From Candidatus Jettenia sp. (GTDB taxonomy: Bacteria; Planctomycetota; Brocadiia; Brocadiales; Brocadiaceae): a DNA stretch of 64,000 bases. Both the position numbers and the translations under genes were made by a program. A model generated the notes under the pieces. The model did not search any database, was not told where the DNA came from, and saw nothing but the letters and a program-made list of their open reading frames with translations. Of the stretch, positions 37,513 to 64,000 are shown in pieces (the first letter of the stretch is position 1; each line of letters starts with the position of its first letter). Location: positions 897,659 to 961,658 of the forward strand of contig CP091278.1 of NCBI GenBank assembly GCA_021650895.1, written 5' to 3'.

Positions 37513-37556
37513 TACCCCAGAAAAGGTTAAGGAGATAAATTTTCTGAAAGCAATGC

Positions 37557-37595
37557 GTAACTTTTAAGGTTACAAAATGTAACTTTTGAGGTTAC
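37557..37595. promoter_or_regulatory. Two tandem palindromes GTAAC-N7-GTTAC
   Basis: GTAACTTTTAAGGTTAC at 37557-37573 and GTAACTTTTGAGGTTAC at 37579-37595 are 22 bases apart (two helical turns). They sit just upstream of the small ORF and primase operon (minus strand). Each is a dyad with 5-base arms. Likely operator sites or replication iterons. Confidence 0.5.
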
Positions 37596-37607
37596 GGAAT
37601 GAGTTTA

Positions 37608-38823: not shown

Positions 38824-39198
38824 CTAAACTGCTATTTCCAAATTTATCTTATTATAATCTACGATAGGCATTGATTCCTTTCGCCCTGCTCTTTTCCGTT
38901 TCATGTCTACTAAGCCTAATTCCTCTAATATAGAAATATCGGTTACAATGCTTTTTATATCTCTTCCAGATAGTCTTGCAAGCTCTTGAAGGCTTTTAGG
39001 TTGTTTCTCCTTAATTACGTGAAGGAGTTCAATTCTCTTTGGAGTAATAGCCTTTCTAAACCCTTTAATACTCTCAAAGTAAAGCCCTTTTTCAGATTTA
39101 ACCTTCTCTCCTCGTTCAAGTTTTTTCATAGCCTCTTTTGTATCATTAAGGACATCCTGAAGGCTTTTTATTCCTATTTTTACCTTTTTAACTCTCAT
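38824..39198 (-). CDS. HTH antitoxin candidate (HVO_A0114-like)
   Basis: 124 residues: an N-terminal dimer segment (VKIGIKSLQDVLNDTKEAMK) and a MarR-like winged helix (RIELLHVIKEKQPKSLQELA and SGRDIKSIVTDISILEELGL), ending RAGRKESMPIVDY. This is the HVO_A0114-like pattern often found beside DUF6516 toxins. It overlaps the upstream gene by 11 bases, in toxin-first order. Predicted to bind the promoter of the pair. Confidence 0.6.
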   Translation of the reverse strand: MRVKKVKIGIKSLQDVLNDTKEAMKKLERGEKVKSEKGLYFESIKGFRKAITPKRIELLHVIKEKQPKSLQELARLSGRDIKSIVTDISILEELGLVDMKRKRAGRKESMPIVDYNKINLEIAV

Positions 39199-39475
39199 AT
39201 TTTTTAACCCTTTTTATATCGTTATAGAAATCTTCAAAAAGCTTGTCTATACTCTTAAATGCGTACACTTCCTCTTTATCTCTATAATGCCTATGGTCTC
39301 CTTTGCCTTCTGCATTATCATAACCAATAACCCGCTTACCCTTCACAATATAAACAAGGGAGTATTTATAACCATGCGGTTTATCAATAGAAGGATTTAC
39401 TTGCCATAGTTTTACCTCGACAATATTACCGGTATCCTCTCTAACCTTGATATGTCGTATGAGTTTACTTTTCAC
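39188..39475 (-). CDS. DUF6516-like toxin candidate
   Basis: 95 residues, upstream partner of the HTH gene (11-base overlap). HIKVREDTGNIVEVKLWQVN, YKYSLVYIVKGKRVIGYDNA and GDHRHYRDKEEVYAFKSIDK are reminiscent of DUF6516, including the ID/GDH-type acidic-His stretch; that family is a predicted type II toxin. The pair lies at the right edge of the element next to the attachment repeat, where addiction modules are common. Toxicity is inferred from pairing and size. Confidence 0.55.
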   Translation of the reverse strand: MKSKLIRHIKVREDTGNIVEVKLWQVNPSIDKPHGYKYSLVYIVKGKRVIGYDNAEGKGDHRHYRDKEEVYAFKSIDKLFEDFYNDIKRVKKYES

Positions 39476-44288: not shown

Positions 44289-44300
44289 GGAGAATTTTTC

Positions 44301-45533
44301 ATGGCAGAGCAACAATACCAGCAGCAACAAGCTGAAGATGAAATTAATCTGCTTGAATACTGGTATGTAATTTGGAAACATAAAATATTACTTGGAATCA
44401 TCTTCTTAACCTCAGTTGTAGGCGCATTGATATTTTGTTTACTCTCTCCAAAGATCTATCAATCTACTGCATCAATCCTTACTCCGGCTGAAACATCAGA
44501 CGATCTTATGAGCAATCTTGGAAGTGCGGCTAACCTTGCTCAAGCCGCTGGAATTTCAATACCTTCTTTAACGCAAAATCGGGATATCTATTTAAGTATT
44601 TTAAAAAGCCGAACCATGAAAGATTATATTATCACCCAGTTTAAACTTAAGGAATATTACGATAAATTATATATTGAAGATGTGCTCGAATGTTTGGATG
44701 ACGTTACAAACATTTCCGAAACAGAAGAAGAAGGCGCAATCTCTATTACTGTAGAAGATAAGAACCCTCAAATGGCAGCGGATATTGCTAATACATACGT
44801 AGACTATCTGGATCGTCTTGTAGCACAGTTTGGAACTGGTGCTGCGAGTCGGCAACGCCATTTTATTGCAGAGCAATTATTAAAAACGGAAAGTAATCTA
44901 CAAATGGCAGAAGAAGCTTTAAAACAATTCAAGGAAAAACATCGTACCATCGCCCTTGAAGAACAGGCAAAGGGAGCTATCGAGGCAGGGGCTACTCTCA
45001 AGGGAGAAATAATGGCCGCTGAAGTGCAATTACAAGTAATGCAGGATTTTGCTAAAGCAAATCATCCGGAGGTCATTAAACTGAAGCGCAGAATTGAAGA
45101 ATTAAAGCACCAACTTGCCAAATCGCAATATAGTAGTGGTTTAGACCTGCCTTCAAGCACAAACAATCCTAACCATTACCAAAAAGAAATTTATCTTCCG
45201 GTAGCCAATGTCCCTCAGGTAACCTTAGAGCTTGTCAGATTAATGCGTAATGTAAAGATAGAGGAAACGCTCTATACCTTTCTGAAACAGGAATTAGAGG
45301 AAGCCAAGATCGCTGAAGTAAAAGATACGCCATCAGTCCAAATCTTAGATCGAGCCGTTCCTGCAGAAAAAAAATCGAAACCCAAGACGAAGATCTTTAT
45401 CGCTGTTGCAGGGTTCATGAGCCTCATATTGGGTATCTTTGGTATCTTCTCAAAAGAATACATTGAGAAGCAGAGGTTAAGGATAGCTGAATCTGTAGAA
45501 ATTAATCAAAGAAAATCCATGGCCAATGTTTAA
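44301..45533 (+). CDS. Wzz-type chain-length determinant
   Basis: 410 residues: a transmembrane helix near residues 32-52 (ILLGIIFLTSVVGALIFCLL), a periplasmic coiled-coil region (GNVR-like; ANTYVDYLDRLVAQFGTGAA) and a second transmembrane helix near 365-385 (IFIAVAGFMSLILGIFGIF). No cytoplasmic Tyr-kinase domain, so it is a polysaccharide co-polymerase of the non-kinase type. It begins 12 bases after the Wza-like gene and overlaps the Wzi-like gene by 8 bases. It should set chain length of the polymer together with the Wzy-like protein. Confidence 0.88.
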   Translation: MAEQQYQQQQAEDEINLLEYWYVIWKHKILLGIIFLTSVVGALIFCLLSPKIYQSTASILTPAETSDDLMSNLGSAANLAQAAGISIPSLTQNRDIYLSILKSRTMKDYIITQFKLKEYYDKLYIEDVLECLDDVTNISETEEEGAISITVEDKNPQMAADIANTYVDYLDRLVAQFGTGAASRQRHFIAEQLLKTESNLQMAEEALKQFKEKHRTIALEEQAKGAIEAGATLKGEIMAAEVQLQVMQDFAKANHPEVIKLKRRIEELKHQLAKSQYSSGLDLPSSTNNPNHYQKEIYLPVANVPQVTLELVRLMRNVKIEETLYTFLKQELEEAKIAEVKDTPSVQILDRAVPAEKKSKPKTKIFIAVAGFMSLILGIFGIFSKEYIEKQRLRIAESVEINQRKSMANV

Positions 45534-47172
45534 TAATCAAACCACAATGTTTCTCCGGCAAAGATGGAAAGTATGCTACCTGGTAATCTTACCGTACCTT
45601 TTATTTGCTGTTTATTCTGTCGCATTCATTCCGCCACTTCAAGCAGGTGATAGAACTAACGTTCCGTTAAAAAACTGGGGTGGATTTTCTTTATTTCGTT
45701 CATGGGTTTATGACGCACTGGAAAAGATTGTGCTTGCAGGATTAGCAGACCAGGCGCTCCTCAATACCAAGCCGCTGAGCCGAATGGAAGCAGCCAGGAT
45801 TGTTGCACAGGCAATACATAAACTGGAACAAGACTATGGTGATTATAATGACCGCAATTATTTAGAAGATTTGCTTTACAAGCTTATAGAAGAATTTGGC
45901 AGTGAATTGGCAGAAATGGGGGTAAAAACACCACTCAATTATGAGGCACAACCAAAATTTTTGAATCTCAAACCTGTGGATAATATTCAATTCGGAAATG
46001 CTCTGGCTAACAATTCGCAGAAGCCCGTTAACAATTTTGGACAACGCTTTAGTGAAGGAATAAATACAGACTTTACTTTTGACGGAAGGAACCAATTAGG
46101 GGACTTTCTGTCACTGTATTATCAGCCAGAGTTTTTTTTGAATAAAGATGGCTCTCAGGGTCGATTACAAATCGGTTATGCAAAACTCACACTCTGGAAT
46201 ACAGAGCTTGAAGTGGGACGTGACAGTCTCTGGTGGGGACCTGGATATCATGGCTCAATGCTTTTTTCTAATAACGCCCCTCCGCTTGATCAGATACGGC
46301 TTGGCTCAGCGGAGCCTTTCAGACTTCCCTGGATTTTTCGTCATATCGGCCCAATCAAGGCGACAACATTTGTAGGAAAACTCGATGGTAATCAAATACC
46401 TTCTCATCCTCTTGTAGGTGGCTATCGCATTAGCTTAGCTCCTTCCCGCTTTGTGGAGATAGGTCATGGTCGTGCTTACCAATTTGCTGGTGACGGACGT
46501 GGCTATACGATAAAAGACTTTCCCGGAACCATCTTCCAAACCACCACATCAGAAGGTGTTGATGACCCGGATAGTAACAGAAATGTTAACAATCTGTTAT
46601 CTCTTGATATCACAGTAAGAATACCCAATGTAGATCGCTATATTTTTATTGCCCGGGATATATCTCTCTATGGTGAGATGGGATGGGATGACACCCGAAA
46701 GGGTTGGATTTACCCTAAGCAACCAGGCGGAATTGTGGGTACTTATCTCACGGGCTTTTTAGGAGATCCAAAACTCGATTTTCGGCTCGAATATGCCAAG
46801 AGTACCTCTATCATGTTTACCCATAATAATATTTATGAAAACGGATTTATATACAGAGACTCTGTTCTTTCTCATTTTATTGGAACTGATGGAAGTGAGC
46901 TTTATGCGCGTCTTAGCCGATGGATTAATGAGGACATCCTTTTAGGATTTCAGGCGAGCCGGGCTGAGATTGGCACCACACAACATGACCTTGTTGGAAA
47001 ATTACCGCATGAAAAGCGCTATTCGTTTGGATTAGATGTCTCTTACCAGGTCTCAGACCGTTCCTCTATTTTTCTGGAATACGACTTTTCCCGCATTACC
47101 AATCATGACTTTGTCAGTGGGGAAAGACAGAACGATCACCTCTTTAGATTCGAATTTACCTACTCATTATAA
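45526..47172 (+). CDS. Wzi-like outer-membrane beta-barrel
   Basis: 548 residues. A signal-anchor (YLVILPYLLFAVYSVAFIP) is followed by an SLH-like region (GLADQALLNTKPLSRMEAAR, about 60-110) and then a capsule-assembly Wzi-like beta-barrel: LEVGRDSLWWGPGYHGSMLF, MGWDDTRKGWIYPKQPGGIV and a terminal aromatic strand (LFRFEFTYSL). Wzi helps hold polymer at the cell surface. The fused SLH-like part is an extra, suggesting anchoring to cell-envelope polymer. It overlaps the Wzz-like gene by 8 bases. Confidence 0.8.
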   Translation: MFNNQTTMFLRQRWKVCYLVILPYLLFAVYSVAFIPPLQAGDRTNVPLKNWGGFSLFRSWVYDALEKIVLAGLADQALLNTKPLSRMEAARIVAQAIHKLEQDYGDYNDRNYLEDLLYKLIEEFGSELAEMGVKTPLNYEAQPKFLNLKPVDNIQFGNALANNSQKPVNNFGQRFSEGINTDFTFDGRNQLGDFLSLYYQPEFFLNKDGSQGRLQIGYAKLTLWNTELEVGRDSLWWGPGYHGSMLFSNNAPPLDQIRLGSAEPFRLPWIFRHIGPIKATTFVGKLDGNQIPSHPLVGGYRISLAPSRFVEIGHGRAYQFAGDGRGYTIKDFPGTIFQTTTSEGVDDPDSNRNVNNLLSLDITVRIPNVDRYIFIARDISLYGEMGWDDTRKGWIYPKQPGGIVGTYLTGFLGDPKLDFRLEYAKSTSIMFTHNNIYENGFIYRDSVLSHFIGTDGSELYARLSRWINEDILLGFQASRAEIGTTQHDLVGKLPHEKRYSFGLDVSYQVSDRSSIFLEYDFSRITNHDFVSGERQNDHLFRFEFTYSL

Positions 47173-50594: not shown

Positions 50595-51653
50595 ATGATA
50601 TTTTTAATTTCCTTGACTTCGCTCGTTATAACTCTCGTTATCCTGCCAGGCCTTTCCAATGTCGCTTCTAAAATAGGGTTAATGGATTTACCTCATAAGA
50701 GAAAAATCCACAAGAGCCCTAAGCCTCTTGTCGGTGGGCTTGGAATCTTCATAGCCTTTTTTATTTGTTCCCTCCTATTTATTTCCCTTTCAAACCTGAG
50801 AGGATTTTATGTAGGCCTTGTAGTCCTTGTTATTACCGGATTTATCGATGATTTTAAAGGATTGAATCATCGATGGAAGTTTGCAGCACAAATATTTTCA
50901 GCAATTCTTATGATGTATTTTAGTAAAACGGTTCTTGTTTCTTGCGGGAACCTCTTTTCTCTCGGACCAATCCATTTCGGCATTCTCGCAATACCCATTA
51001 CCATATTTTGTGTAGTCGGTGTTATAAACGCAATGAACATGATCGATGGTATCGATGGCCTTGCAGGTGGCATTTCCTTTATAACCCTTATATCATTTGC
51101 CATTCTCTCTTACATAAACCACCAGAAAGAGTTGATGTTGCTGAGTATAGCCTTAAGTGGTGCTGTTATTGGTTTCCTGAAATACAATTGGCATCCTTCT
51201 AAACTGTTTATGGGAGACATAGGAAGCGGTTCTCTTGGTTTCACTACCGCTTTTCTCGCCATAGCCATAACACAGAAACACCACACCCATGTTTCACCTA
51301 TGGTTCCCATACTTATATTGGCCGTACCGATCGTTGATACCTTAACGGTTATGATTAAACGAAAGTTAAAAAACAAAAGCCCATTTCATGCAGGCAAAGA
51401 TCATATTCATCATATCCTGTTAAGGATGGGTTTTCAGAAAAGGACAACCGTTAAGATAATCCTTTTCGTATCATCTCTCTTTTCTATCCTGGGGATTTTA
51501 TGTGCAATCATGAAAATCCCGGACTACTACCTATTCTTCATATTCTTCACCTATTTCATCCTCTATTTCTCATCTTCGTTCTTTGTAAAAGAACTTTATA
51601 TATACAAAATGAAATTCACAAAGAGAATTGGCTTAGCTCATGGCTCAAAATGA
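50595..51653 (+). CDS. WecA/TagO-type undecaprenyl-phosphate sugar-1-phosphate transferase
   Basis: 352-residue integral-membrane protein of the MraY/WecA family. Ten or more hydrophobic segments. The conserved cytoplasmic motifs MIDGIDGLAGG (second DDxxD-like region) and FMGDIGSGSLGF are present, and HAGKDHIHHILLRMG is the usual HIHH C-terminal motif. FIDDFKGLNHRWKF provides the first Asp-rich motif. It should start lipid-linked repeat synthesis by moving a HexNAc-1-phosphate to undecaprenyl phosphate. Convergent with GH20 copy 1. Confidence 0.92.
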   Translation: MIFLISLTSLVITLVILPGLSNVASKIGLMDLPHKRKIHKSPKPLVGGLGIFIAFFICSLLFISLSNLRGFYVGLVVLVITGFIDDFKGLNHRWKFAAQIFSAILMMYFSKTVLVSCGNLFSLGPIHFGILAIPITIFCVVGVINAMNMIDGIDGLAGGISFITLISFAILSYINHQKELMLLSIALSGAVIGFLKYNWHPSKLFMGDIGSGSLGFTTAFLAIAITQKHHTHVSPMVPILILAVPIVDTLTVMIKRKLKNKSPFHAGKDHIHHILLRMGFQKRTTVKIILFVSSLFSILGILCAIMKIPDYYLFFIFFTYFILYFSSSFFVKELYIYKMKFTKRIGLAHGSK

Positions 51654-51679: not shown

Positions 51680-53077
51680 CTAAAATTCGTTATATATTTG
51701 GTATTCTGACGATTGTGTTTTGTATTTCGCATTCCAAAAGATATTAGCCGATGTTTGTATTATTTTGTTTAAAGCATCTATATCCTTTTTTAATGCACTG
51801 AACCACGTCGTAGCAATCATACCTTTAACATTTTTGGGTATCTTTGCGACATAACGGCTAAAATTTTTTGTTGTCCTCTCCTTCTTCCAAGTAGCGCCAA
51901 GTACTTTATGCCCAGCTTTAGCAAAGGATAAAGTTGATGGAAAATCAAATTGTTCATCGAAATAATGCCAATCACAAATGACTATACCTTTGGGAATTTT
52001 ATTTCTTAAAGAACTATAACCTTTGATACCATGTAAGTGACCGGCAAACATACCAGGAAATTCCTTTGGAGCTATTAACATATCTCCCCACATCCATGTT
52101 TCAATGCCACGATCTTTGAGATACTTGTGTAAATATTTTACATCTGCAAGAAAAAGATCGCGAGGTAACGACTCTTCACCATCACGAAGCCATTTTTTTT
52201 TCGATTTTAAGCTGAGACCCGCTACTTCATCATGTCCTATATGGAATGCTCTCGGATTAATGGAATCTATGACCTCATCTATCATTGGTAAAACGATACT
52301 ATAGGTTTCCCTTTTTGGATGATATGTTACTTTATTATACATAACTTGAGGGTAAATATTTTTTAATTGTGCCTGCTGATGGGTAAGTAATTTTATTTCC
52401 GGTATGACATCCAACCCATTTTCTCTCGCAAACTGTACTACATCTAAAAATTCCTCTTTTGTCCAAGCGTCAATACCTGCTATTTCTTCCATTGTATTGA
52501 ATCGAACATCATCTTTCATTTGAATTATTAAAGTATTATAATGACCAAAGCGGGCTAATTGAATTTGCCGTTTGATCTCAGATGGTTTTTGATATCGTAA
52601 AACTATATGAAGAGCGCGAGTCTTTAAGTCAGGCCAATCCGCTATTTTCCCTTCTCTCATCTTTCCTTCATTGTTTCTCATCAACGCTTCAAAAGAGGTT
52701 AAACCGTGCAATGCACCTAAATAATCCTTCCCTGTGATTACTATTTTATTAGAGAATATCTCTATTGTATAGCCCTCGTGCTGCCTTAGTGCTTTTATTC
52801 GTTGATTTGGTAATATTTTAACCACGATATCTATGATATTTACTTTTTGATCTAAACTTTTTAAGTAATTTTCAACCTCCAATACCGTGGATTGAAAACG
52901 ATTTCTAAAGTGGATGGGGATAATTAGTCTGCTATCTGAGCCGACGATAATATAATTACTTTTAAAATTACTTTGTTTCGGAGATGGAACAATGATTTGT
53001 TCAGATAACGCAATACCGTTCCATAAGAATAAGGATAAGAACAAAGAGGAAAAAAAGCTTATTCCCTTATAATTCAT
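51680..53077 (-). CDS. Secreted GH20-type beta-N-acetylhexosaminidase, copy 1
   Basis: 465 residues. Signal peptide (FFSSLFLSLFLWNGIALSE), then a GH20b-like domain (about 30-150, ending LGALHGLTSFEALMRNNEG) and the GH20 catalytic barrel. The catalytic pair is FHIGHDEVAG (Asp-Glu near 273-274). Sugar-contact residues such as TWMWGDMLI and VICDWHYFDE also fit. GAGGTGAT precedes the start. It is closely similar to copy 2 at 54878. The terminal tail after KYKTQSSEYQ is specific to this copy. It should trim or degrade N-acetylhexosamine-containing polymer outside the cell. Confidence 0.85.
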   Translation of the reverse strand: MNYKGISFFSSLFLSLFLWNGIALSEQIIVPSPKQSNFKSNYIIVGSDSRLIIPIHFRNRFQSTVLEVENYLKSLDQKVNIIDIVVKILPNQRIKALRQHEGYTIEIFSNKIVITGKDYLGALHGLTSFEALMRNNEGKMREGKIADWPDLKTRALHIVLRYQKPSEIKRQIQLARFGHYNTLIIQMKDDVRFNTMEEIAGIDAWTKEEFLDVVQFARENGLDVIPEIKLLTHQQAQLKNIYPQVMYNKVTYHPKRETYSIVLPMIDEVIDSINPRAFHIGHDEVAGLSLKSKKKWLRDGEESLPRDLFLADVKYLHKYLKDRGIETWMWGDMLIAPKEFPGMFAGHLHGIKGYSSLRNKIPKGIVICDWHYFDEQFDFPSTLSFAKAGHKVLGATWKKERTTKNFSRYVAKIPKNVKGMIATTWFSALKKDIDALNKIIQTSANIFWNAKYKTQSSEYQIYNEF

Positions 53078-53856
53078 ATATCACCTCGTAATTATACTTT
53101 TAGATGAAATTCAGTAAAATTGATATATACTTTATGAATTAACTTTCCTTATTCTGATGAACAAATAATCTTTTCTGTAAAATTATTGGCATTGCTCAGA
53201 GTAATTGAAACATACACTTAAGGCAAAAACTTCTTTAGTCTCATTTGCTTAATTCAAGCTTGACTTTAAACAGTGTTTATATTTAGTTTCTATCTTAACA
53301 AAATCAAAAAGCATGCCATGAGATTGAATTGCATTTTATCTAGTGTATAGTTATAAAGTTTAATTAAGTTATGGAGTTACGGACGTTTAAGCTTAGAAAT
53401 ATCAACGTTCCAACATATTTTGTTAAAAATTGTTTCTTATAATTAAACATAACCTAAGTATTTATAATTACTATAGTTAAATTAATTTATCTATGTCTTT
53501 AATAAAACATAAATTATCAAGGCAGGAAGAAAATAAAAGTTAGTTAAATAAAATAGTAAAATGTGAAATATCACATAAGTGTGTCGTTACAAAAATGTGA
53601 CATGCTACAGTGTGTTATACGCGAGTATAAGGGAGTGGGTTTTTTGGCCGGTTAGTTAAGGGTCATATTTGGTAAAATAAGCAATGACAGGAGGAACGTT
53701 TTAATTCAGCATTTATGTCAAAGTTTGCATTGGAGGTAATAGAAAGGGAGGAGATGGTAGCAAGATTATCATCAGAAGATCAAATTTAGATTACTGAATG
53801 CCCTCAAGCCAGTCAGCAATATCCACTATAATTATTGAAATGATATGCTGGTACCA
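53078..53856. other. 780-bp non-coding region upstream of GH20 copy 1
   Basis: Very AT-rich. It holds a dyad ATGTGAAATATCACAT at 53561-53576 (listed separately), a TGTGACATG motif near 53596 and, on the minus strand at 53791-53826, VDIADWLEGIQ then stop, which resembles the ending MPDWLHGI of the sulfotransferase at 56247. No other ORF is convincing. Confidence 0.5.
53561..53576. promoter_or_regulatory. Dyad ATGTGA-N4-TCACAT
   Basis: Six-base arms pair perfectly around a 4-base centre, with a TGTGACATG half-site nearby. The half-sites resemble CRP/FNR-family TGTGA/TCACA but the spacer is four rather than six. It is about 480 bases upstream of GH20 copy 1; the TGTGCCATGTCACA repeats at 6490 are related. 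Confidence 0.35.
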
Positions 53857-54858
53857 TCATGTAGTATACCCCAATAAATTCATAGTTTTTTCAAAAGAAA
53901 GATACAAAGAAGGGTGAATGGTAAAATGTTTTTTTGGTGGAGTTGGAAACAAGATTTTTTTCCCATATTCTAAAAATTTGATATCTACAGATAATTCACA
54001 AAATTCTGCAATTGTAGATAAAACCTCTTCCGGATTTGTTACTAAATCTTCATATTTAACCATAAGAATATCTTTTGGAAAATTTTCTATGAATTTTAAT
54101 CCCTCTTTCATGGTAACAATCCATTCTGCAGCCGCCATATCCCGGTGATTATCAAATTTTCTCACATCGTTCATAATTGCTTTTAAATCTTCATCGCGAG
54201 AGATAATCTGGTCTACCAATAGATTCCATTTGCGGTTATTGATACCCCACCAATCATGAACTTCACCACTAACACACATGCCAAGTTCCTTTGACCATAC
54301 TTCGATAGATTTGCAGGTATCCCAGCCATTACGTACCAAAAACAGAAATTTCGCATCTGGAAAAATAGCTTTTACAAAAGGCACTCTAAATATTAATTCA
54401 GGATATTTATCAACAACTCTTTTTGAACAAGTAACTGCTAGATAGGTTCCGTAAAGGCGATATGCAGTGCGCTTTATTTCTTCAGTTACTTGCTTAGCAT
54501 CAAGGCGATAGTATGCATTGCGAGCATGAGCATAACTACCAATTAAATCTTCATCCTGGTATATGAAATGCCATAGTGCCTTAGGCTCATTCAGAAATCC
54601 AATATCTTTGTGCATTGACAATACTTTTCCCAATATTGTCGTTCCGCTTCTTCCTGTCCCTAAAATAAAAATAGGTTTCTCTACCTTTTTCAGTTGCGGT
54701 AATTTTTTTTCTACTGAAAAAAGAGAAAAAATTAACGTATTTATCCATCTTCCTTTTGTAGTTAAGGGACGTCCCTCAAACAAAGCGTATCCTATTAAAC
54801 GCTTTATTACTTTGGCAGGTCGTATTTTAATATAAATTGGATCTAATTGCGCAATCAT
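53857..54858 (-). CDS. Sulfotransferase
   Basis: 333 residues; I start at ATG 54858, nine bases inside the longest frame. The PAPS 5'-phosphosulfate loop is FILGTGRSGTTILGKVLSMH (about residues 53-72) and the 3'-phosphate region is FLVRNGWDTCKSIEVW (about 165-180). The C-terminal KYEDLVTNPEEVLSTIAEF is also typical. It is of a different subgroup from the three other sulfotransferases in the locus. It lies between the two GH20 genes, on the same strand. It should transfer sulfate from PAPS to a sugar hydroxyl or amino group of the polymer or its repeat unit. Confidence 0.82.
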   Translation of the reverse strand: MIAQLDPIYIKIRPAKVIKRLIGYALFEGRPLTTKGRWINTLIFSLFSVEKKLPQLKKVEKPIFILGTGRSGTTILGKVLSMHKDIGFLNEPKALWHFIYQDEDLIGSYAHARNAYYRLDAKQVTEEIKRTAYRLYGTYLAVTCSKRVVDKYPELIFRVPFVKAIFPDAKFLFLVRNGWDTCKSIEVWSKELGMCVSGEVHDWWGINNRKWNLLVDQIISRDEDLKAIMNDVRKFDNHRDMAAAEWIVTMKEGLKFIENFPKDILMVKYEDLVTNPEEVLSTIAEFCELSVDIKFLEYGKKILFPTPPKKHFTIHPSLYLSFEKTMNLLGYTT

Positions 54859-54877
54859 AATTCTCACGTATTATAAT

Positions 54878-56257
54878 TTACTTTGCATTCCAGAATGCTT
54901 CAGCAGATACTTGTATTATTCTATGTAAGGCGCCTCTATCTCCTTTCAGCGCGCCAAACCATGTTGAAGCAATCATACCTTCACCGTTTATTGGCATATG
55001 AGCAATATAACGGCTGAAATTTTTTATTGTAACTTCTTTCTTCCAGGTAACACCAAGTACCTTATGCCCTGCCTTAGCAAATGATAAAGCTGATGGAAAA
55101 TCAACTTGCTGATCTAAATAATGCCAATCACAAATTACAATATCTTTGGGAATCTTTTCTCTGATATTTGAATATCCGTAGGTCCCGTGTAAATGCTTAT
55201 TTAACATCGTGGGAAACTCATTGGAGGTTATGAGCATATCCCCCCACATCCATGTCTCAACTCCACGGTTTTTAAGGTGTTTATGTAAGCGTTGAACATC
55301 TGCAAGGAAAAGATCGGGCGGTAGCATGTCCTCACCTTTACGGAGCCATTTTTCTCTCGTTTTCTGGTTAAGACCCGCTACTTCATCATGTCCTATATGG
55401 AATGCTCTTGGATGTATAAGGTCTATTACTTCATCAATCATAGGCAAAACGACTTTATACGTTTCTTCTTTTCTCGGGTCATAGGTTGCCTTATTATACA
55501 TGAGATGAGGATACATATCTTTCATCTGCGTCTTTTGATGAGTAAGGAGCCTTATCTCTGGTATAACATCTAATCCATTTTCCCTGGCAAATTGCACTAC
55601 ATCTAAAAATTCCTCTTTTGTCCATGCAGTAGCATTTGCTATCTTCTCCATTGTTTTGAATCGAACATCATCTTTCATTTGTATTATTAAGGTATTGTAA
55701 TGCCCAAAACGGGCTAGTTGAATCTGTTGTTTGATCTCAGATGGTCTTTGCTTTCGTAAAACTATATGAAGAGCGCGTATTTTCAAATCAGGCCAATCCG
55801 CTATTTCTCCTTCTCTCATCTTTCCTTCATTGTTTCTCATCAACGCTTCGAAAGAGGTTAAACCGTGCAATGCACCTAAAATATCTCTGCTCGTTATTAC
55901 AATTGTATTAGGGGATACGGTTATCGTATAGCCTTCGTTGTGCAGTAATGCTTCTATAAACTTATTAGTGCCTTGATTTTTCAATATTTTTACTACGATA
56001 GTAACAATATCTCTTTGTAGTTTTAGGCTTTTTAGGTAGTTTTCTATTGCATGTACCGTTGATTTATACCGATTCCTAAAGCTATCAGGAACAATCAATT
56101 GGCTATTTGAACCTATAGCAATATGGCTATTGCCACATTTACTATATTTTGAAGATGGAACAGAAGTTTGGCCTGATAATGCTACGCCGGTCCATAACAG
56201 AATTGATAAAAAGATAAAAAAACTTATTCTTTGTGTAATAGGTAGTTTACCTTCCAT
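54878..56257 (-). CDS. Secreted GH20-type beta-N-acetylhexosaminidase, copy 2
   Basis: 459 residues, a tandem paralogue of copy 1. Signal peptide (IFLSILLWTGVALSG), a GH20b-like domain and the catalytic barrel with FHIGHDEVAGLNQ (Asp-Glu pair), TWMWGDMLITSNEF and VICDWHYLDQQVDFPSALSF. Shared blocks with copy 1 (FEALMRNNEGKMREG, RALHIVLR, GHYNTLIIQMKDDVRF) show a recent duplication; differences are concentrated in the loop regions and the N-terminal domain. It overlaps the downstream sulfotransferase gene (ending at 56247) by 11 bases. Confidence 0.85.
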   Translation of the reverse strand: MEGKLPITQRISFFIFLSILLWTGVALSGQTSVPSSKYSKCGNSHIAIGSNSQLIVPDSFRNRYKSTVHAIENYLKSLKLQRDIVTIVVKILKNQGTNKFIEALLHNEGYTITVSPNTIVITSRDILGALHGLTSFEALMRNNEGKMREGEIADWPDLKIRALHIVLRKQRPSEIKQQIQLARFGHYNTLIIQMKDDVRFKTMEKIANATAWTKEEFLDVVQFARENGLDVIPEIRLLTHQKTQMKDMYPHLMYNKATYDPRKEETYKVVLPMIDEVIDLIHPRAFHIGHDEVAGLNQKTREKWLRKGEDMLPPDLFLADVQRLHKHLKNRGVETWMWGDMLITSNEFPTMLNKHLHGTYGYSNIREKIPKDIVICDWHYLDQQVDFPSALSFAKAGHKVLGVTWKKEVTIKNFSRYIAHMPINGEGMIASTWFGALKGDRGALHRIIQVSAEAFWNAK

Positions 56258-57164
56258 TTATTCCATGTAACCAATCTGGCATTTCTTTATAACCTTTTTT
56301 ACTCAGCATATTTAATAAATTCTCGTTATGAGGTGCGTATAAAGACTCAAGAGATGAACGTGTATCTGGTAATATTCCTTCTTCAAAAGAAGATTCATTT
56401 ACAGAATAATATAGTCCTCTTAAAACTGGTTTTAGTCCCGGTAATTTTCTGAATAATAATTCTAATTTTTTATTAGTATATATCCCTATTTTATGGAGAA
56501 ATTTATTTCTATAAAAAGCAGATCTATTTTCAACAGTAAATTGCTCGGAAGGATATATATGTGAATCAATCTCAAGCCAATCACATAATTCTCTCATAAA
56601 CAATAGAGGATTATCCTTTAAATGTTCAAAAAATACTATTTTTAAGGAATCTCCAAAATACGCATACCAATCCTCTAAATAGTTGGAATAAAAACCCTCC
56701 TTAATCCCCCTATATAGAGTGTCCTTCTCTATAGGAGAACTCTTACCCATCTCTATATGGTCCTTACATAAACCAACATACTCATCAAATAACATTTCTT
56801 TAGGTATAAGCATTATCCCTTTGGAGGCTTTATAGAATGAGAATAGCCTGCTAACTGGTTCACGAAAAATAATAATTATCTTTACTTTCCCTAATTCCTT
56901 ATAAATTCTTTGAGGGATAGTTTTACTTCCGTAGAAATACCCAGGGGTTGCTTCTAATATATATTTTTCATTCTTATAGTGTTTAAAATATCTGAGATAT
57001 TCATCAATAGGAGATAGTTCATTTCCATATCTTAAGGGAAGAAAATAGCAAGTCTCTTTTATATGAGAAGAACAAATTTCCGGATGACGAGACAGATATG
57101 AGAAGAGAGATGTTGTACCCCCTTTTGTAACTCCGGCAATTATTACATTTGGTTTTTTTCCCAT
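56247..57164 (-). CDS. Sulfotransferase, NDST-like subgroup
   Basis: 305 residues, starting at ATG 57164 (AAAGG five bases upstream). Motifs: IIAGVTKGGTTSLFSYLSRH (PAPS loop), SHIKETCYFLP, and IFREPVSRLFSFYKASKG (3'-phosphate binding). Related to the heparan-sulfate-type Sulfotransfer_1 group. The C-terminal YKEMPDWLHGI is a small extra tail. It overlaps GH20 copy 2 by 11 bases, so it is part of that unit. Confidence 0.85.
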   Translation of the reverse strand: MGKKPNVIIAGVTKGGTTSLFSYLSRHPEICSSHIKETCYFLPLRYGNELSPIDEYLRYFKHYKNEKYILEATPGYFYGSKTIPQRIYKELGKVKIIIIFREPVSRLFSFYKASKGIMLIPKEMLFDEYVGLCKDHIEMGKSSPIEKDTLYRGIKEGFYSNYLEDWYAYFGDSLKIVFFEHLKDNPLLFMRELCDWLEIDSHIYPSEQFTVENRSAFYRNKFLHKIGIYTNKKLELLFRKLPGLKPVLRGLYYSVNESSFEEGILPDTRSSLESLYAPHNENLLNMLSKKGYKEMPDWLHGINGR

Positions 57165-57369
57165 AATCACCTTTAACTCATACTACTTTTAATAGCTGCA
57201 AATAAATTGCGTTCCTTTTTATAATTTCTCATTATATTAAATGATGCATTATCTCTGAAAAATTCTACAAAATCAATATTTTTCATAGTGTTCATTGTGA
57301 TATTCAAATTTCACCTTGAAGATTATCGCTCACCAATATAAATAAATCCTTGATGAAAAATTTCATCTG

Positions 57370-58794
57370 TTATTTAGCAATTAATGTATTTATATTTTCA
57401 ACCGGAAACTTTGCCATAAAAAAATTCTTGTTTTGTTTCAATCGAAAATATTCCAAGACTACTAAACCCGCTAATAACCAAAAACAGAACCCAAATGCTC
57501 TTAGTTCAAAAGAACGTTCCAGGAATGTTGCAGGAATAGTTATAATTATAAGTACACGAAAAATTACACCTATTTGTTTTGAAAAATCATCTAATGAGCT
57601 TGACACCTGTTTTGATATCCTGTAGAGGCGAAAAAGAATCCACATATATATTGAAAAGCCAATGATTCCATAATAAATCAACATTGCAACCCAATATACA
57701 TCGTCGAAAGCATTGTAACTAGCCAATTTTCCAAACGATCCACCTTTTTTTGCAAGTGTTTCCTTTGCAGAAGTTTCATCAGGACTATAACCTAATAATT
57801 TTCCTGAAGAAATAGCGGAAACACCAACCTCCCGAATAAACCACCCACGAGAAACACTCATAGTCTTTTCCCAATAAGATTCTGAAATTAATTGCATAAG
57901 TGAATGTGCAGGATTAATATAACTAGTTTTTTCATCAAGGGTCTTACTATACCATTTTGATGCTGCAAGAAGAATCGTTAAACAAATGATTACTGGCGCT
58001 ACAAATATAATTAAAACCTTTAACTTAGTCAGTTGATGCCGTTCTGAATAAAGAAAAATTATGATAGGAATTATTAAAAGGCCAATTAATAATGCTCCTC
58101 GCTTATAGGTTACAAATAAACCAAGTATAAGTATAATTACCCAAAAAAGTGTTTTATTTAGGAGCAATCTCTTTGTTCTCAAATAACAACTAGACCCTAG
58201 TAATATTATTGATATCAAAAGGAAATATGCCATTGCAGCAGGTTTACCAAAAGTGCCAAATACCGACCCGATCTTCAGCGTATTAGAAAATAAACTTAGT
58301 TGCAAATTGGCAAATTCCAAATCTACCTCTCTTGGGGCAAAGAAATTGATAACCCTTTCACCACAAAAATATTCAGCAAGTCCTAAAAAAGACTCAGCAA
58401 TCCCAATTATAACGATAATCTTTAACAACATCATTGATTGCTTTCTGCTTATACCGATGTTAACGATAATATAATAAACTGTAATATATCGTAATAACAA
58501 TCGTATGCTTACTAACCCTCCCAATAAGGAAGCACCGTTAGAAAAAATAGATATTATTGCAATAAAAATAAAGACTAATAATGGTATATCAATTGGAGTT
58601 CGTTTTAAATTTTTACCATGTATCATTCGATATGATAATACAGCAATTAATAACAAATAAAGAATAGCTTCAGTAGCAAGCCGTGCAAGCGAATAAATAT
58701 CATCCGATACAGGAAGCCATTTCAAAATAAAGTCCTCAAACGGTAGATATAATATTAGACCATATATAATCCAATAGGGATAAATTTTCATCAT
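57370..58794 (-). CDS. Wzy/O-antigen-ligase-like polymerase
   Basis: 474 residues with about twelve hydrophobic segments (LLLIAVLSYRMI, IFIAIISIFSNGASLLGGL, ILLLKIIVIIGIAESFLGLA and others). The long periplasmic loop between the hydrophobic segments (about residues 275-335) and the GALLIGLLIIP block resemble O-antigen ligase/Wzy polymerases. There is no universal catalytic motif; the call rests on topology and on the locus. It should polymerise the lipid-linked repeats at the periplasmic side. It starts 4 bases before the NDST-like sulfotransferase region end at 58799. Confidence 0.75.
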   Translation of the reverse strand: MMKIYPYWIIYGLILYLPFEDFILKWLPVSDDIYSLARLATEAILYLLLIAVLSYRMIHGKNLKRTPIDIPLLVFIFIAIISIFSNGASLLGGLVSIRLLLRYITVYYIIVNIGISRKQSMMLLKIIVIIGIAESFLGLAEYFCGERVINFFAPREVDLEFANLQLSLFSNTLKIGSVFGTFGKPAAMAYFLLISIILLGSSCYLRTKRLLLNKTLFWVIILILGLFVTYKRGALLIGLLIIPIIIFLYSERHQLTKLKVLIIFVAPVIICLTILLAASKWYSKTLDEKTSYINPAHSLMQLISESYWEKTMSVSRGWFIREVGVSAISSGKLLGYSPDETSAKETLAKKGGSFGKLASYNAFDDVYWVAMLIYYGIIGFSIYMWILFRLYRISKQVSSSLDDFSKQIGVIFRVLIIITIPATFLERSFELRAFGFCFWLLAGLVVLEYFRLKQNKNFFMAKFPVENINTLIAK

Positions 58795-58798
58795 AAAA

Positions 58799-59743
58799 TT
58801 AAAATATATTAGCTTTCCACGGAATAGTCTTCCCGATTAGCTTTTCTATAGATTGGCGTTCTCCTTTATAATAATCTCTAAGAAAATTTTCTGTTGATGA
58901 AAAGATCTTTACGTCTTCAGGAGAACGGACATTTAAATATAGATAAAGTGGTTCAAACATCGATCTCAGGCGCTTAAAAATAAAATGGATATACGGCTTA
59001 TTATGGGAATGTGTACGTATATTAACACGAAGTTTAATATAAAGAGAGTGTATTTTTGAACTTTTTAGAGTTTCGGTACGATTAAATACTTTAAAATCGT
59101 AATTATTATAAAATTCTGGAGCAATACCTACAAACGAGCATATCTCTTTCAATACCGACATCGGATTATTTGAAAGATCTTCATAAAAAACTACAAGAAT
59201 TCTATTATTACCAAATAAGTTAATGTAAGAATTAAGATAAACAGAGTATCTCCCTTGCTCAAGGGCAAGCAGATACTGATCTTTTTTATCTTTTCCATCA
59301 TATTCTAATTGCAGTTTAATATATTTATCAAAGGTTATCTTCTCTGGAAGAAAGTTATTCTGCTTTGCAAATTTATACCAAGAAATAAGCCTTGAGGCAG
59401 GTTCTCTCAGTATAAAAACTATTTTTGCTTCCGGAAGCGACTGTTTTATCTTTTGAGGAGTACCCTGAGAATAAAGATAATCAGGAGTCGCTTCCATCCG
59501 TACATTCATATTAGTACAATGAATATAAAATTGCTCGTATTTATCCAAACCATCCTCAAATCGGTATTTTGATCTTGAGGGTACGGGATAATCAGCATCG
59601 AGAAAAAAACGTGTCTCCTTCCTGTTAGCAGCACAAATTTGAGGATGATCTTTAAGATAAAAGAATAATGAAGTTGTAGCTGCTTTCGTTGTTCCCCCAA
59701 TAATCAAGTAACGATAATCCTTAACATTTAATTCTGTTTTCAT
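58799..59743 (-). CDS. Sulfotransferase, NDST-like subgroup
   Basis: 314 residues. LIIGGTTKAATTSLFFYLKD (PAPS loop with the A-A variant), AANRKETRFFLDADYP, IVFILREPASRLISWYKFAK and FYEDLSNNPMSVLKEICSFV are visible. It is very similar in length and motif layout to the sulfotransferase at 61911, so the two probably arose by duplication and may act on different positions of the repeat. Followed by the Wzy-like gene four bases on. Confidence 0.87.
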   Translation of the reverse strand: MKTELNVKDYRYLIIGGTTKAATTSLFFYLKDHPQICAANRKETRFFLDADYPVPSRSKYRFEDGLDKYEQFYIHCTNMNVRMEATPDYLYSQGTPQKIKQSLPEAKIVFILREPASRLISWYKFAKQNNFLPEKITFDKYIKLQLEYDGKDKKDQYLLALEQGRYSVYLNSYINLFGNNRILVVFYEDLSNNPMSVLKEICSFVGIAPEFYNNYDFKVFNRTETLKSSKIHSLYIKLRVNIRTHSHNKPYIHFIFKRLRSMFEPLYLYLNVRSPEDVKIFSSTENFLRDYYKGERQSIEKLIGKTIPWKANIF

Positions 59744-59802: not shown

Positions 59803-61035
59803 TTATCGACAAACATTCAAGGTTATTTCATTATAAACTTCTATCAATTTTTTATAATAAATTCCCTTATCAAAATGCGTTTCTGCATATCCTCTGGCTG
59901 CATATGATAGTTCTTTATATTCGTCTTCAGAAACAGCTTCTGCTAATTTAACAGTTTCTATTAAAGAATTGATGTTTTTACTTTCAAAAAGAAATCCATT
60001 TATTTTATCCTGCACTAATTCTGGTATTGCACCAATTTTTGATGCCAAAACTGGTCTTCCGCATGCAAAACCCTCTACGATATTTAAACCGAATGTCTCG
60101 TACCATTCCGATGGGATTATTACATATTTAGAATCTCTAATTACTTCAAATAACTCTTGACCCGTTAAATAACCGACTAATTCTGCATTAATATTATTTT
60201 CTTGTATATATTTTATTATTTCATTTTTAAGATCACCATTTCCTACTATCTTAAGTTTAATATTTGGAAGATATTTCCAGGCTTTCAATAAGGTTAAAAT
60301 ACCTTTTTCCCTTGATAGTCTTCCAAAATACAGATAGTAATCTCCCTGCAAATACATGGGAGTATATTTCTCCATATTTACAAAGTTATATATTTGGATA
60401 GTTTTATCCCTTAGCTGAGGTTTATACTGTAAGTGTTTCTCCATAAGAAATTTACTTACCATAATAAATTTATCTATATATCTCTCATAAGGAAAGTACT
60501 TATCTCGTATATAACATTCTAAGGCAGAAATAGAACTATAGGTTAAATTACTTCTATTGCATTTCCTTACAACACCGTGATAATAATTACCCGTCGCACA
60601 TTTTTCACAAATCTTACCTTCATCATTAAGAAAAGTATACATCGGACAAAGCATTTTATATTCATGAATAGTCATTACTGCCGGTACATTATATCTTTTT
60701 AATACCGGAAGGATCGACGAAGTAAGCCTCCCATAAAATATATGAAGGTGTGCAATATCAGGTTTTTCTTTTTTTATTAAATCTTCTAATTTATATTTTG
60801 CTTCCTTTGAATAGATAAATTTGTAGATAAAATTATTTTGGATAAAATTTCTCCCAAAGTAATTTGATGGCTCAATGAAATATTCTTTACAAGGACTTTC
60901 CAGGGCCTCCTTATCATTGACACTAAAATGGATGACTTTATGCCCATTTTCCTCTAATAATCTTGAGGTCTCAAAATATACTCTCTCTGAACCCCCTTTT
61001 ACATAATGATAATTATTAATTTGCAAGACCTTCAT
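59803..61035 (-). CDS. GT4-family glycosyltransferase
   Basis: 410 residues. N-terminal glycosyltransferase domain (MKVLQINNYHYVKGGSERVY), a Cys-rich insert (KICEKCATGNYYHGVVRKC), and a C-terminal GT4 domain with the E-x7-E motif in SEWYETFGLNIVEGFACGRP, the NDP-sugar binding region. Sugar and linkage cannot be read from sequence. It sits between the sulfotransferase at 58799 and the methyltransferase at 61231 on the minus strand. It is the only clear glycosyltransferase in the window, so others probably lie beyond its end. Confidence 0.87.
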   Translation of the reverse strand: MKVLQINNYHYVKGGSERVYFETSRLLEENGHKVIHFSVNDKEALESPCKEYFIEPSNYFGRNFIQNNFIYKFIYSKEAKYKLEDLIKKEKPDIAHLHIFYGRLTSSILPVLKRYNVPAVMTIHEYKMLCPMYTFLNDEGKICEKCATGNYYHGVVRKCNRSNLTYSSISALECYIRDKYFPYERYIDKFIMVSKFLMEKHLQYKPQLRDKTIQIYNFVNMEKYTPMYLQGDYYLYFGRLSREKGILTLLKAWKYLPNIKLKIVGNGDLKNEIIKYIQENNINAELVGYLTGQELFEVIRDSKYVIIPSEWYETFGLNIVEGFACGRPVLASKIGAIPELVQDKINGFLFESKNINSLIETVKLAEAVSEDEYKELSYAARGYAETHFDKGIYYKKLIEVYNEITLNVCR

Positions 61036-61230: not shown

Positions 61231-61914
61231 CTACCGCATATGCTTTTCAAACCGAAAAATTGTTACCTGTTGATACTCTCCTATCTTACGAATATTCTGA
61301 GCCCCTGCTGATTGGAGCGTCTTACTTAAAGGCTCGTGAAAAAAAGTAATCTGAGCGCCTTTCGCAGGCACAGATTCATAACCTGAGATAATTCCATATC
61401 TCATTGCCAGAGCAACTATTTTCTGGACAAACGCTTTGTATTCATTACAGGATGGTAAATGAATCAATACGTCAAATGATATGGCAATATCTGCTGGTGA
61501 TAGATCCATTTCCAAAAAATTTCCTGAAATAAAATTTCTGTTAGAATAAGCAACACGATTATGTTCTATCACTACCTTTGAAATATCCAGACCAGTATAA
61601 TTTTTAGCAGGCAATACAGAACTTACTTCCATATCGCCACAACCTATATCTAATACAGATTCAGGTTTAATCTGATCAACAATCTGCTGCAAAAGTTCTC
61701 GTTTGTATTTCTTCGTCTCACCACGAGAACCAATTCCTGAACCAAGTTCTTTATTTTTTAAATAACGATGGTCCCAAAAATCTCTGTTATTAAAATTTCT
61801 TCGTACTAAACCTGTTTTTATTTTAAATTCCATTACAATATCTTTTACCATATTACGTAACCAATTTGTCTTATTATGAGATCCCTCTTTCTGATGTAAT
61901 TCTATCATAATCAC
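61231..61914 (-). CDS. Class I SAM-dependent methyltransferase
   Basis: 227 residues with motif I VLDIGCGDMEVSSVLP (about 85-100) and motif post-I YTGLDISKVVIEHN. The Rossmann core is complete. It overlaps the sulfotransferase at 61911 by 4 bases, so the two are coupled and methylation of a sugar near a sulfated position is plausible. The substrate is not defined. Confidence 0.8.
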   Translation of the reverse strand: MIMIELHQKEGSHNKTNWLRNMVKDIVMEFKIKTGLVRRNFNNRDFWDHRYLKNKELGSGIGSRGETKKYKRELLQQIVDQIKPESVLDIGCGDMEVSSVLPAKNYTGLDISKVVIEHNRVAYSNRNFISGNFLEMDLSPADIAISFDVLIHLPSCNEYKAFVQKIVALAMRYGIISGYESVPAKGAQITFFHEPLSKTLQSAGAQNIRKIGEYQQVTIFRFEKHMR

Positions 61915-62882
61915 GTTTTCCTTTCTTCATCCATCATTCTAGAAGATACATTATCGCAATGCCACGGGGTTGATCTACCAATCAATTTCTCTAATTTATC
62001 AATTTCTTCCTTATAATAATCCTTGATAAATATTTTAATTTTTGGAGGAATTACAATCTTATCGGGGAAATTCTTATTTAAGGAAAAATACAAAGGTTCT
62101 ATAAGCAGCCGAAATCTTCGTAGATTTTTGTGAATTATCGGCTTATTATGAGTATAACTGCGTACATAAAATCGAAGTCTCTTATATATTCCATGCAATT
62201 TAGGATTCTTCATCGATTCGGTACGGTTGAATACTTTAAAATCATAATCTTCATAAAATTCAGGACTGATTTCAGCAAAAGAACTAACAGACTTAACAAC
62301 AGTCAACGGATCTTTCACCAACTCCTCGTAAAAAATAATCTGAATTCGATCTCTACCAAATAAATCAAAATAAGGATTCAAATAGACGGAGTATCGTCCC
62401 TGCTCAAGAGAGCGCATATGTTGTTCTCCTTTTTCACTGGTATTCGTGTGAAGCTGCTTCTCTATATATTCTTCAAGGGTAACATCTCCAGAAATTTGCC
62501 CATTCTGCTGAGCAAATTTATACCATGAAATAATTCTTGAAAAAGGCTCACGTAAAACAAATACAAGTTTAACTTTCGGGAGGGAGTCTTTAATTTTCTG
62601 CGAAGTACCTGATGAGTATAAATAATCTGGGGTAGCTTCTAATTGTAATTTCGAATCATCACCATGATTGAAATACTCTCCGTATTTATCCATTCCATCC
62701 TCATATCGGTATTTAGACTTTACGGGATAGTCCCGATCTAAAAAAAATCGTGTTTCTTTCGCACTTGCAGCACAAATATCAGGATGGTCCGCAAGATATC
62801 TGAATAATGATGTTGTTGCGGCTTTGGTTGTACCACCAATAATGAGGAAGTGGCGATCTCTTATATTGAGTTTTACTTTCAT
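61911..62882 (-). CDS. Sulfotransferase, NDST-like subgroup
   Basis: 323 residues. LIIGGTTKAATTSLFRYLAD, SAKETRFFLDRDYP, LVFVLREPFSRIISWYKFAQ and FYEELVKDPLTVVKSVSSFA match the sulfotransferase at 58799 block by block. Coupled to the flippase (4-base overlap) and methyltransferase (4-base overlap), so all three are made from one transcript. Likely a site-specific sulfotransferase of the polymer. Confidence 0.87.
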   Translation of the reverse strand: MKVKLNIRDRHFLIIGGTTKAATTSLFRYLADHPDICAASAKETRFFLDRDYPVKSKYRYEDGMDKYGEYFNHGDDSKLQLEATPDYLYSSGTSQKIKDSLPKVKLVFVLREPFSRIISWYKFAQQNGQISGDVTLEEYIEKQLHTNTSEKGEQHMRSLEQGRYSVYLNPYFDLFGRDRIQIIFYEELVKDPLTVVKSVSSFAEISPEFYEDYDFKVFNRTESMKNPKLHGIYKRLRFYVRSYTHNKPIIHKNLRRFRLLIEPLYFSLNKNFPDKIVIPPKIKIFIKDYYKEEIDKLEKLIGRSTPWHCDNVSSRMMDEERKT

Positions 62883-64000
62883 ATCTTAAACTTATTCTTA
62901 TTTATATTTGGAATATACAAAGTAACTATATTCATATATGATTTAATATATACCACTGAGCTTAAATTCCAAAAGATTACAGCAATCATACTTGCGAAGG
63001 CCGCTCCGTTTATTCCATACCTTGGTATTAAAATAGCATTCAAAACAATATTAAGTACTGTAGCTATTAGCATTATATTTTGAAAAACTTTTTGCTTTCC
63101 TGTCATTTGGAGAACAAATCCTACTGAACCAGAAATAGCATTTATAAATTGTCCTATAGTTATAAATAATAAAACATGTGAACCTGTTTTGAACTCTTCT
63201 CCAAAAAAACCAAGAATAAATGATGGGAAAAGAAGAATAACGAGCAAAATAGGGAAAGAAGTCCAGAATATAAGTTTTGTCGATTGTTTTACTACTCTAC
63301 TAAGACCTTTTATATCTCCCCTTCCATAGAATTCTGCAAACTTTGGCGCTGCTATGCTATTGATAGCAAATAAAGTAATAGCTGTAAAGTTTGCAATTTT
63401 TAAGGCGACGTTATAAATCCCAACTTCAATTTCTGTTCTAAAAATTCCCAGCATCACAGTATCAGTCCATTGTATAACTAATAACATTGAGCTTGATAAT
63501 AACATCGGGAGAGAGATACTCAGTATATTATTATATTTAATTGAATTTGCCATCTTATACTTAAAGATATCTACATGCTTAAACCATACAATTATACTTA
63601 TAACAGATAGAATTATTATTCCTATGACATGGGCAATAACAGGCACTCGCATGTCTTTCGAAAAAAAAATGGCAATACCTATGATCATAGACGCAAAAAG
63701 TGGTATGGCCATATTTTTGAAAATTGTATAAGCAACTATTTTTTTTAATCCTCTCAAACTTTCTGCATGTAAAAAAAGTATAGCAAACGGAAGAATTGCT
63801 AAGGAAATTATCTGGAAGTATGATGATAAATGTGGTTTTCTAAAAATATAATGAGATAGAAAAGGTGAGAAACAAAAAAGTAAGAGGCTGAGGATAAGAG
63901 ATACAGGAATTAAAAGCCTTAAAGTTTTCACATACACTTCTTTTACAAGATCCCATTGATTCTTCGATGAGTATTCTGCTACAAATTTTAAAGATACGGT
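62879..64000 (-). CDS. Wzx-like oligosaccharide flippase, partial
   Basis: At least 373 residues; the gene runs past the window's end, so its N-terminus is missing. The frame stays open to 64000 through VSLKFVAEYSSKNQWDLVKEVYVK before the first GTG-start candidate. Many hydrophobic helices (LRLLIPVSLILSLLLFCFSP, LSISLPMLLSSSMLLVIQW, NIMLIATVLNIVLNAILIP) and the TDTVMLGIFRTEIEVGIYNVA block are typical of the MATE/MVF-type polysaccharide_synt (Wzx) family. It should flip lipid-linked repeat units across the inner membrane. 4-base overlap with the sulfotransferase. Confidence 0.85.
   Translation of the reverse strand, partial: TVSLKFVAEYSSKNQWDLVKEVYVKTLRLLIPVSLILSLLLFCFSPFLSHYIFRKPHLSSYFQIISLAILPFAILFLHAESLRGLKKIVAYTIFKNMAIPLFASMIIGIAIFFSKDMRVPVIAHVIGIIILSVISIIVWFKHVDIFKYKMANSIKYNNILSISLPMLLSSSMLLVIQWTDTVMLGIFRTEIEVGIYNVALKIANFTAITLFAINSIAAPKFAEFYGRGDIKGLSRVVKQSTKLIFWTSFPILLVILLFPSFILGFFGEEFKTGSHVLLFITIGQFINAISGSVGFVLQMTGKQKVFQNIMLIATVLNIVLNAILIPRYGINGAAFASMIAVIFWNLSSVVYIKSYMNIVTLYIPNINKNKFKI

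Follow-up and report, generated by a model that had tools for sequence, protein, structure and literature searches.

The DNA analyzed here (the window) is a 64,000-nucleotide stretch of contig CP091278.1 from a Candidatus Jettenia species, an anaerobic ammonium-oxidizing (anammox) bacterium with a genome of 3.82 Mb. Within it, two genes for apparently secreted proteins of glycoside hydrolase family 20 (GH20), termed copy A and copy B, flank a gene for a sulfotransferase (ST1) of the type that uses 3'-phosphoadenosine 5'-phosphosulfate (PAPS). The genes and features at this site are:

51680..53077, minus strand: GH20 copy A, 465 residues, with a signal-like segment, a GH20b domain and a GH20 barrel; catalytic pair D283-E284.
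52434..52715, minus strand: gene-conversion patch in copy A, copy-B-like, coding-sequence nucleotides 363-644, ~0.28 kb.
53455..53618, minus strand: conserved non-coding block upstream of copy A, a possible control region, with the dyad TGTGATATTTCACA at 53562-53575.
53857..54867, minus strand: ST1, PAPS-type sulfotransferase (Sulfotransfer_3) with a GTGRSGTT motif; translation probably begins at the ATG at 54858, as it does in homologues.
54878..56257, minus strand: GH20 copy B, 459 residues, catalytic pair kept, assigned from profile matches and alignment to copy A.

Copies A and B match the Pfam GH20 profile (49.5 and 51.7 bits, respectively; cut-off 22.3) as well as the GH20b domain (39.3 and 38.8 bits; cut-off 26.1), and each begins with a hydrophobic, signal-peptide-like segment, as judged by reading the sequence. 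Their identity of 71% across 451 residues (E = 0) is far above chance. A first-pass annotation of this DNA had described two secreted, paralogous GH20 genes around a sulfotransferase, and the coordinates, profile matches and identity confirm this, with secretion taken from the signal-like N-termini. In a profile search of the whole genome, these two were the only true GH20 genes; a third candidate, a weak match of 19 bits in a radical-SAM-like protein, lay below the cut-off and was dropped. The Asp-Glu pair lies in a HIGHDEVAG motif common to both copies (D283-E284 in copy A numbering), and HIGHDE aligns with the HxGxDE of solved GH20 enzymes, e.g. HMGADE in the lacto-N-biosidase of Bifidobacterium bifidum, in agreement with the earlier claim that both copies keep the catalytic residues. 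The ratio of nonsynonymous to synonymous substitution rates (dN/dS) between the copies is ~0.17, as expected if both work, and both appear to be under purifying selection.

An AlphaFold model of copy A computed from 13 input sequences (predicted local distance difference test score (pLDDT) 85.9; predicted template modeling score (pTM) 0.87) has the predicted (beta/alpha)8 barrel and matches GH20 structures at Z about 30. By sequence, the closest solved relatives of copy A are the lacto-N-biosidase of Treponema denticola (9FYM/9FYL) and Niako3494 (8BAL), which also top the structural list at Z about 30, level with many GH20 and GH84 enzymes. The same structures are the closest solved relatives of copy B; thus, neither of the two outcomes that the first-pass annotation had named as contrary to its reading, loss of the catalytic pair on alignment to solved structures or unrelated best hits for the two copies, was found. 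With these relatives the window proteins share LxHQ, HxGxDE, WMWGDxLI and CDWHY-type motifs, but identity is only 21-24%, the GH20b domain and the synthesis-locus setting are features of the window proteins, and the likeness to the lacto-N-biosidase of the T. denticola branch is one of sequence and fold only.

We compared residues among 13 members of the GH20 subfamily to which the two copies belong, using copy A numbering. Across these members 53 columns are invariant, including R154, H233, E284, W328, W330, D332, W370, Y372 and W425. Both window copies retain the catalytic Asp and Glu and every residue that is invariant in the subfamily, and each deviates at one near-invariant position, copy A at D253, which is His (Asp in the other 12 members), and copy B at T423, which is Ser. 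In dispersins, an acidic residue (Glu332 in DspB) that follows the final Trp of the barrel by two positions contacts O4/O6 (PMC11883664). With the register set via 9FYM and not DspB, this corresponds to W425+2, where the 13 members have S, G, A, H, P, I or F. Absence of the dispersin-type Glu, in a register inferred from 9FYM, suggests that the -1 pocket is altered in this subfamily.

ST1 matches Sulfotransfer_3 at 96.6 bits (cut-off 27), and its GTGRSGTT sequence, the 5'-phosphosulfate-binding motif, aligns to the matching loop of tyrosine sulfotransferases. Orthologues of ST1 with 47-60% identity lie directly 5' of a member of the same GH20 subfamily in five loci (L012, L016, L017, L018 and L019); a further genome found in a separate sample (G907) has the order glycosyltransferase (GT)-(two genes)-ST1-GH20-DUF1972, while in locus L014 the ST1 orthologue is one gene, a GT, away from GH20 (ST1-GT-GH20-DUF1972). 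The six genomes with direct adjacency and the seventh with the genes one apart belong to phyla other than that of Jettenia, and a DUF1972 glycosyltransferase often comes after GH20 in these loci. Therefore, ST1 is not, as had been assumed, an otherwise unrelated gene caught between the two copies: its proximity to this GH20 subfamily is conserved across several phyla. The conserved adjacency rules out ST1 as an accidental insert, and because the middle gene is one of four sulfotransferase genes in the surrounding cassette, it is no isolated insert. A sulfotransferase lies nearby in all 15 subfamily loci and in none of seven other GH20 loci (Fisher p = 6e-6), the latter all from Planctomycetota and some on short contigs. 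The subfamily is rare (3/78, 2/349 and 2/345 genomes in three samples, seed genomes counted in each), and that it was encountered within Planctomycetota only in Jettenia and Loosdrechtia suggests a horizontal gain.

Using ST1 instead of GH20 as the query led to three further genomes, G1301, G882 and G586, whose ST1 loci lack GH20, ruling out an exclusive bond between the two. In G1301, the order is ST1-GT-secreted GH5-DUF1972, as compared with ST1-GT-GH20-DUF1972 in L014; its ST1 shares 71% and its GT 58% identity with the L014 counterparts. The protein in the slot has 377 residues, a signal-like N-terminus and a match to the GH5 cellulase family (45.5 bits; cut-off 23.5), and it is unrelated to the GH20 in the same slot of L014. 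In G586, a GH5 gene lies beside an ST2-like sulfotransferase gene. In G882, no hydrolase was found between ST1 and DUF1972; a secreted protein of 536 residues without a Pfam match is encoded nearby. Two polysaccharide loci with sulfotransferase genes encode a GH5-family protein with a signal-like N-terminus:

L078:5772-6905: in the slot that GH20 occupies elsewhere.
L058:5988-7064: in a further such locus.

Because an unrelated hydrolase replaces GH20 in this slot, the comparison argues that the function of the slot is hydrolysis of the polymer.

Both GH20 genes belong to a larger locus, the other features of which are:

41961..47172, plus strand: export module with Wza-like (41961), Wzz-like (44301) and Wzi (45526) genes; 95-98% identical in a third Jettenia species (G002).
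50595..51653, plus strand: WecA-like initiating sugar-phosphate transferase (PF00953, 152 bits), the left edge of the variable cassette.
56247..57170, minus strand: ST2, sulfotransferase by profile match; in Loosdrechtia, an orthologue with 75% identity lies next to GH20.
57370..58794, minus strand: probable Wzy polymerase (Wzy_C 26.7 bits, under the cut-off of 31.7); identity with its Jettenia ecosi counterpart is 44%.
58799..59743, minus strand: ST3, sulfotransferase by profile match.
59803..61035, minus strand: GT4-type glycosyltransferase; in other genomes, relatives are encoded immediately 5' of ST1.
61231..61914, minus strand: methyltransferase.
61911..62882, minus strand: ST4, sulfotransferase by profile match.
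62879..63937, minus strand: flippase (Wzx/MATE-like); the full open reading frame extends past the window to 64282.

The cassette from 51680 to about 64282 thus holds two GH20 genes, four sulfotransferase genes, the polymerase, the GT4, the methyltransferase and the flippase, and copy B starts within ST2, in the final 11 bases of the latter. To the left of the cassette there are also an epimerase gene and ManC, and just to its right lies cysQ (L045:499-1410; TIGR01331, 282 bits, cut-off 228.8), followed by rmlC and rmlA. CysQ recycles 3'-phosphoadenosine 5'-phosphate (PAP), the by-product of sulfotransferases; two adenosine 5'-phosphosulfate (APS) kinase genes lie elsewhere in the genome. In Loosdrechtia (L044), an Inositol_P-family protein that is probably also CysQ adjoins the GT-ST1 pair, and in another locus (L079:2074-5438) a CysN/APS-kinase fusion and a PAPS-reductase-domain protein (CysD-like) are encoded near GT-ST1-DUF1972, which fits a nearby supply of PAPS. 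An initiating transferase, a flippase, a polymerase (below cut-off), chain-length and export components and sulfotransferases are all present, and this gene set predicts a sulfated polysaccharide made by a Wzx/Wzy pathway. Because the cassette encodes one glycosyltransferase besides the initiating enzyme, the repeat unit is probably short.

In comparison with J. ecosi and the third Jettenia species, the flanking proteins are mostly 94-98% identical (95-97% for the WecA-like transferase), whereas within the cassette counterparts are either missing or share 26-73% identity. The sulfotransferases, glycosyltransferases and GH20 genes are particular to each of the three cassettes; GH20 occurs twice in the window species, twice in J. 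ecosi and once in the third species, and the wecA-adjacent GH20 is in the same position in all three. By these comparisons, the cassette is serotype-like and hypervariable between Jettenia species.

A gap of 779 bp lies between copy A and the operon, and copy B is embedded in the operon. The block at 53455-53618 in this gap shares 81% and 79% identity with two other Jettenia species, as compared with 73-76% for the copy A coding sequence. A second dyad in the block reads GTCACA-TTTT-TGTAAC, and the two dyads, resembling sites of a CRP/FNR-type regulator, are putative operators. The gap was also considered as a decayed gene of this locus, which was rejected as it had no match to the locus proteins, and as a known RNA; here, no Rfam match reached the gathering score and only sub-threshold matches to small nucleolar RNAs were obtained. 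Because copy A has its own upstream gap with a conserved block, it is possible that it is separately controlled.

We favor, with moderate confidence, the interpretation that both GH20 proteins are cognate hydrolases that cut the sulfated exopolysaccharide of their own locus after its export, at beta-linked N-acetylhexosamine (HexNAc) residues. The gene content, catalytic pair, predicted fold, conserved pairing, variable cassette and gene conversion are read from the sequence. Activity, substrate, cellular location and purpose are proposed on the basis of the fold and catalytic pair, the ST1-GH20 pairing, the replacement of GH20 in its slot, the PAPS genes and the purifying selection, and also because sulfated glycosaminoglycan (GAG)-like polymers have been reported in anammox and other granular sludges (as cited in PMC10483923). 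A secreted hydrolase, secretion being judged from the signal-like N-termini only, is conserved alongside synthesis genes. In this scheme, the lipid-linked repeat would begin with an N-acetylated sugar added by the WecA-type enzyme; the GT would extend it and up to four PAPS sulfotransferases would sulfate it in the cytoplasm; Wzx and Wzy would then flip and polymerize the repeat, and Wza, Wzz and Wzi would export the polymer. The GH20 proteins, secreted to the periplasm or the cell surface, would cut beta-HexNAc linkages by the substrate-assisted Asp-Glu mechanism, and chains would be cleared, trimmed or released. Their role may accordingly be clearance or trimming during export, or release or remodeling outside the cell. 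The variable cassettes would differ between species, each bringing a hydrolase suited to its own polymer, and it is plausible, as suggested in the first-pass annotation, that the two copies act on differently sulfated HexNAc. More tentatively, and as a possibility we would not yet favor, this GH20 branch may be dedicated to the hydrolysis of a bacterial sulfated GAG-like polymer, from which it might release sulfated disaccharides; the branch would travel with ST1 and two glycosyltransferases across phyla in a slot also compatible with GH5 and would mark the sulfated-polymer locus of anammox granules.

Several points weigh against the interpretation of the pair as cognate hydrolases. GH20 is not obligatory, being absent from the ST1 locus in G1301, G882 and G586, and in Loosdrechtia ST1 and GH20 are on separate contigs. 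Most of the subfamily loci came from a GH20 query, which favors the pairing, and the sulfotransferase profiles were partly trained on the same loci. Moreover, a divergent GH20 relative in G656 (L055:7959-9407) has HIGHSEV for HIGHDEV, the catalytic Asp being replaced by Ser, and the L016 member reads HIGHEE, so that not all members of the subfamily need be active. These altered members, together with the missing O4/O6-contacting acidic residue of dispersins in 13/13 members (by alignment to 9FYM), would fit non-hydrolytic proteins that bind or transglycosylate the polymer, helping its assembly, anchoring or export. We regard this as quite improbable because both window copies keep the catalytic Asp, the Glu and all subfamily-invariant residues, and because the unrelated GH5 hydrolase occupies the same slot in another genome. 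Somewhat less improbable, if still unlikely, is that the pair serves in breakdown of the extracellular matrix, i.e. dispersal or granule remodeling, and not in quality control of export, with copy A as a separately regulated dispersal enzyme; this would involve identical chemistry at another time and to another end. The gap, conserved block and operator-like dyad in front of copy A, as opposed to the embedded position of copy B, are in line with this, as is the reported facilitation of biofilm dispersal by PslG (PMC9894940); however, two-mismatch matches to the putative dyad are not rare. That the two proteins scavenge foreign HexNAc glycans as nutritional enzymes and lie here by chance seems very unlikely to us: the genome has no other GH20, several Jettenia species carry GH20 inside their variable synthesis cassettes, and bacteria of other phyla carry it in synthesis loci. 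In favor of this idea, typical GH20 enzymes are catabolic.

The arrangement had originally been read as a duplication with an inserted or retained middle gene. In its simplest form, a tandem duplication in this species with later insertion of the sulfotransferase and redundant copies, this reading draws on the 71% identity and on exact runs of up to 41 bases common to both copies. However, copy A is as close to the wecA-side gene of J. ecosi (72%) as to copy B (71%), and in other species the two copies have different conserved neighbours: counterparts of copy A lie beside wecA in two other Jettenia species, and the Loosdrechtia relative of copy B adjoins an ST2 orthologue, as copy B does in the window. 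The most conserved shared block is the conversion patch in copy A, in which the clustering of sites identical between A and B was reached in 0/500 permutations. Synonymous divergence (dS) between A and B is 0.46 inside and 1.51 outside the patch, and between A and the J. ecosi gene 2.48 inside and 0.87 outside; because the former is lower and the latter higher within the patch, copy A is likely the recipient. In the tree without codons ~121-215, copy B clusters with the Loosdrechtia gene (98% bootstrap); inside these codons, copy A joins copy B (69%) while the J. ecosi and G002 genes stay together (97%). The exact position of A relative to B is tentative (58-88% support). Based on the conserved neighbours and the trees, we conclude that the pair consists of two older lineages with a conversion patch and not of a fresh duplication. 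A recent tandem duplication is ruled out by tree, neighbours and dS, and the simple scenario is largely refuted, leaving it very unlikely.

The first-pass annotation had also considered a trimming role within a synthesis locus unusual. Because exopolysaccharide operons commonly include a gene for a hydrolase or lyase (PMC9894940), this view falls, and hydrolases within synthesis loci are, as a general kind, already known. PelA (GH166), PslG, PgaB and AlgL are, like the window proteins, secreted glycosidases or lyases encoded with exopolysaccharide machinery (PMC9894940, PMC5933820), but they belong to other enzyme families, and the partners in the window are sulfotransferases and a Wzx/Wzy system. 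Dispersins, GH20 enzymes that cut poly-beta-1,6-GlcNAc, share the catalytic pair and the link to a biofilm polymer (PMC11883664), whereas the window GH20 proteins apparently lack the O4/O6-contacting Glu and have a GH20b domain, and the locus is of the Wzx/Wzy and not the pga/ica type. GH20 sulfoglycosidases such as BT4394 have the GH20 fold and HexNAc chemistry in common with the pair, and 7DVA/7DVB are among the structural matches; these enzymes lie outside synthesis loci, and the likeness concerns fold and chemistry. The synechan xss cluster of Synechocystis is likewise a Wzx/Wzy exopolysaccharide cluster with several sulfotransferases (PMC8205485), but it is cyanobacterial and has eight glycosyltransferases as compared with very few in the window, and the text of that paper mentions no glycoside hydrolase. 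In 2021, sulfotransferases were said to be unknown from exopolysaccharide clusters of bacteria other than cyanobacteria (PMC8205485); reports to the contrary have appeared since, e.g. for a Vibrio capsule (PMC11641403). Few matching sulfotransferase genes were found in abundant sludge bacteria (PMC10483923). As judged by the available literature, a GH20 branch tied to sulfotransferases, an interchangeable hydrolase slot and a candidate sulfated-polymer locus in anammox bacteria appear to be new. Here, an anammox genome offers a concrete candidate locus that combines four sulfotransferases with built-in hydrolases and has a PAP phosphatase gene close by, and if active, the GH20 enzymes would be direct reagents to find and cut the polymer that holds granules together.

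We note that just to the left of the export genes, at window positions 31535-38729, integrase, Dam-type methyltransferase and primase/AAA genes are found, which suggests an integrated mobile element. The genes closest to the locus, at 38824-39475, are without counterpart in the stretch of G002 that was compared.

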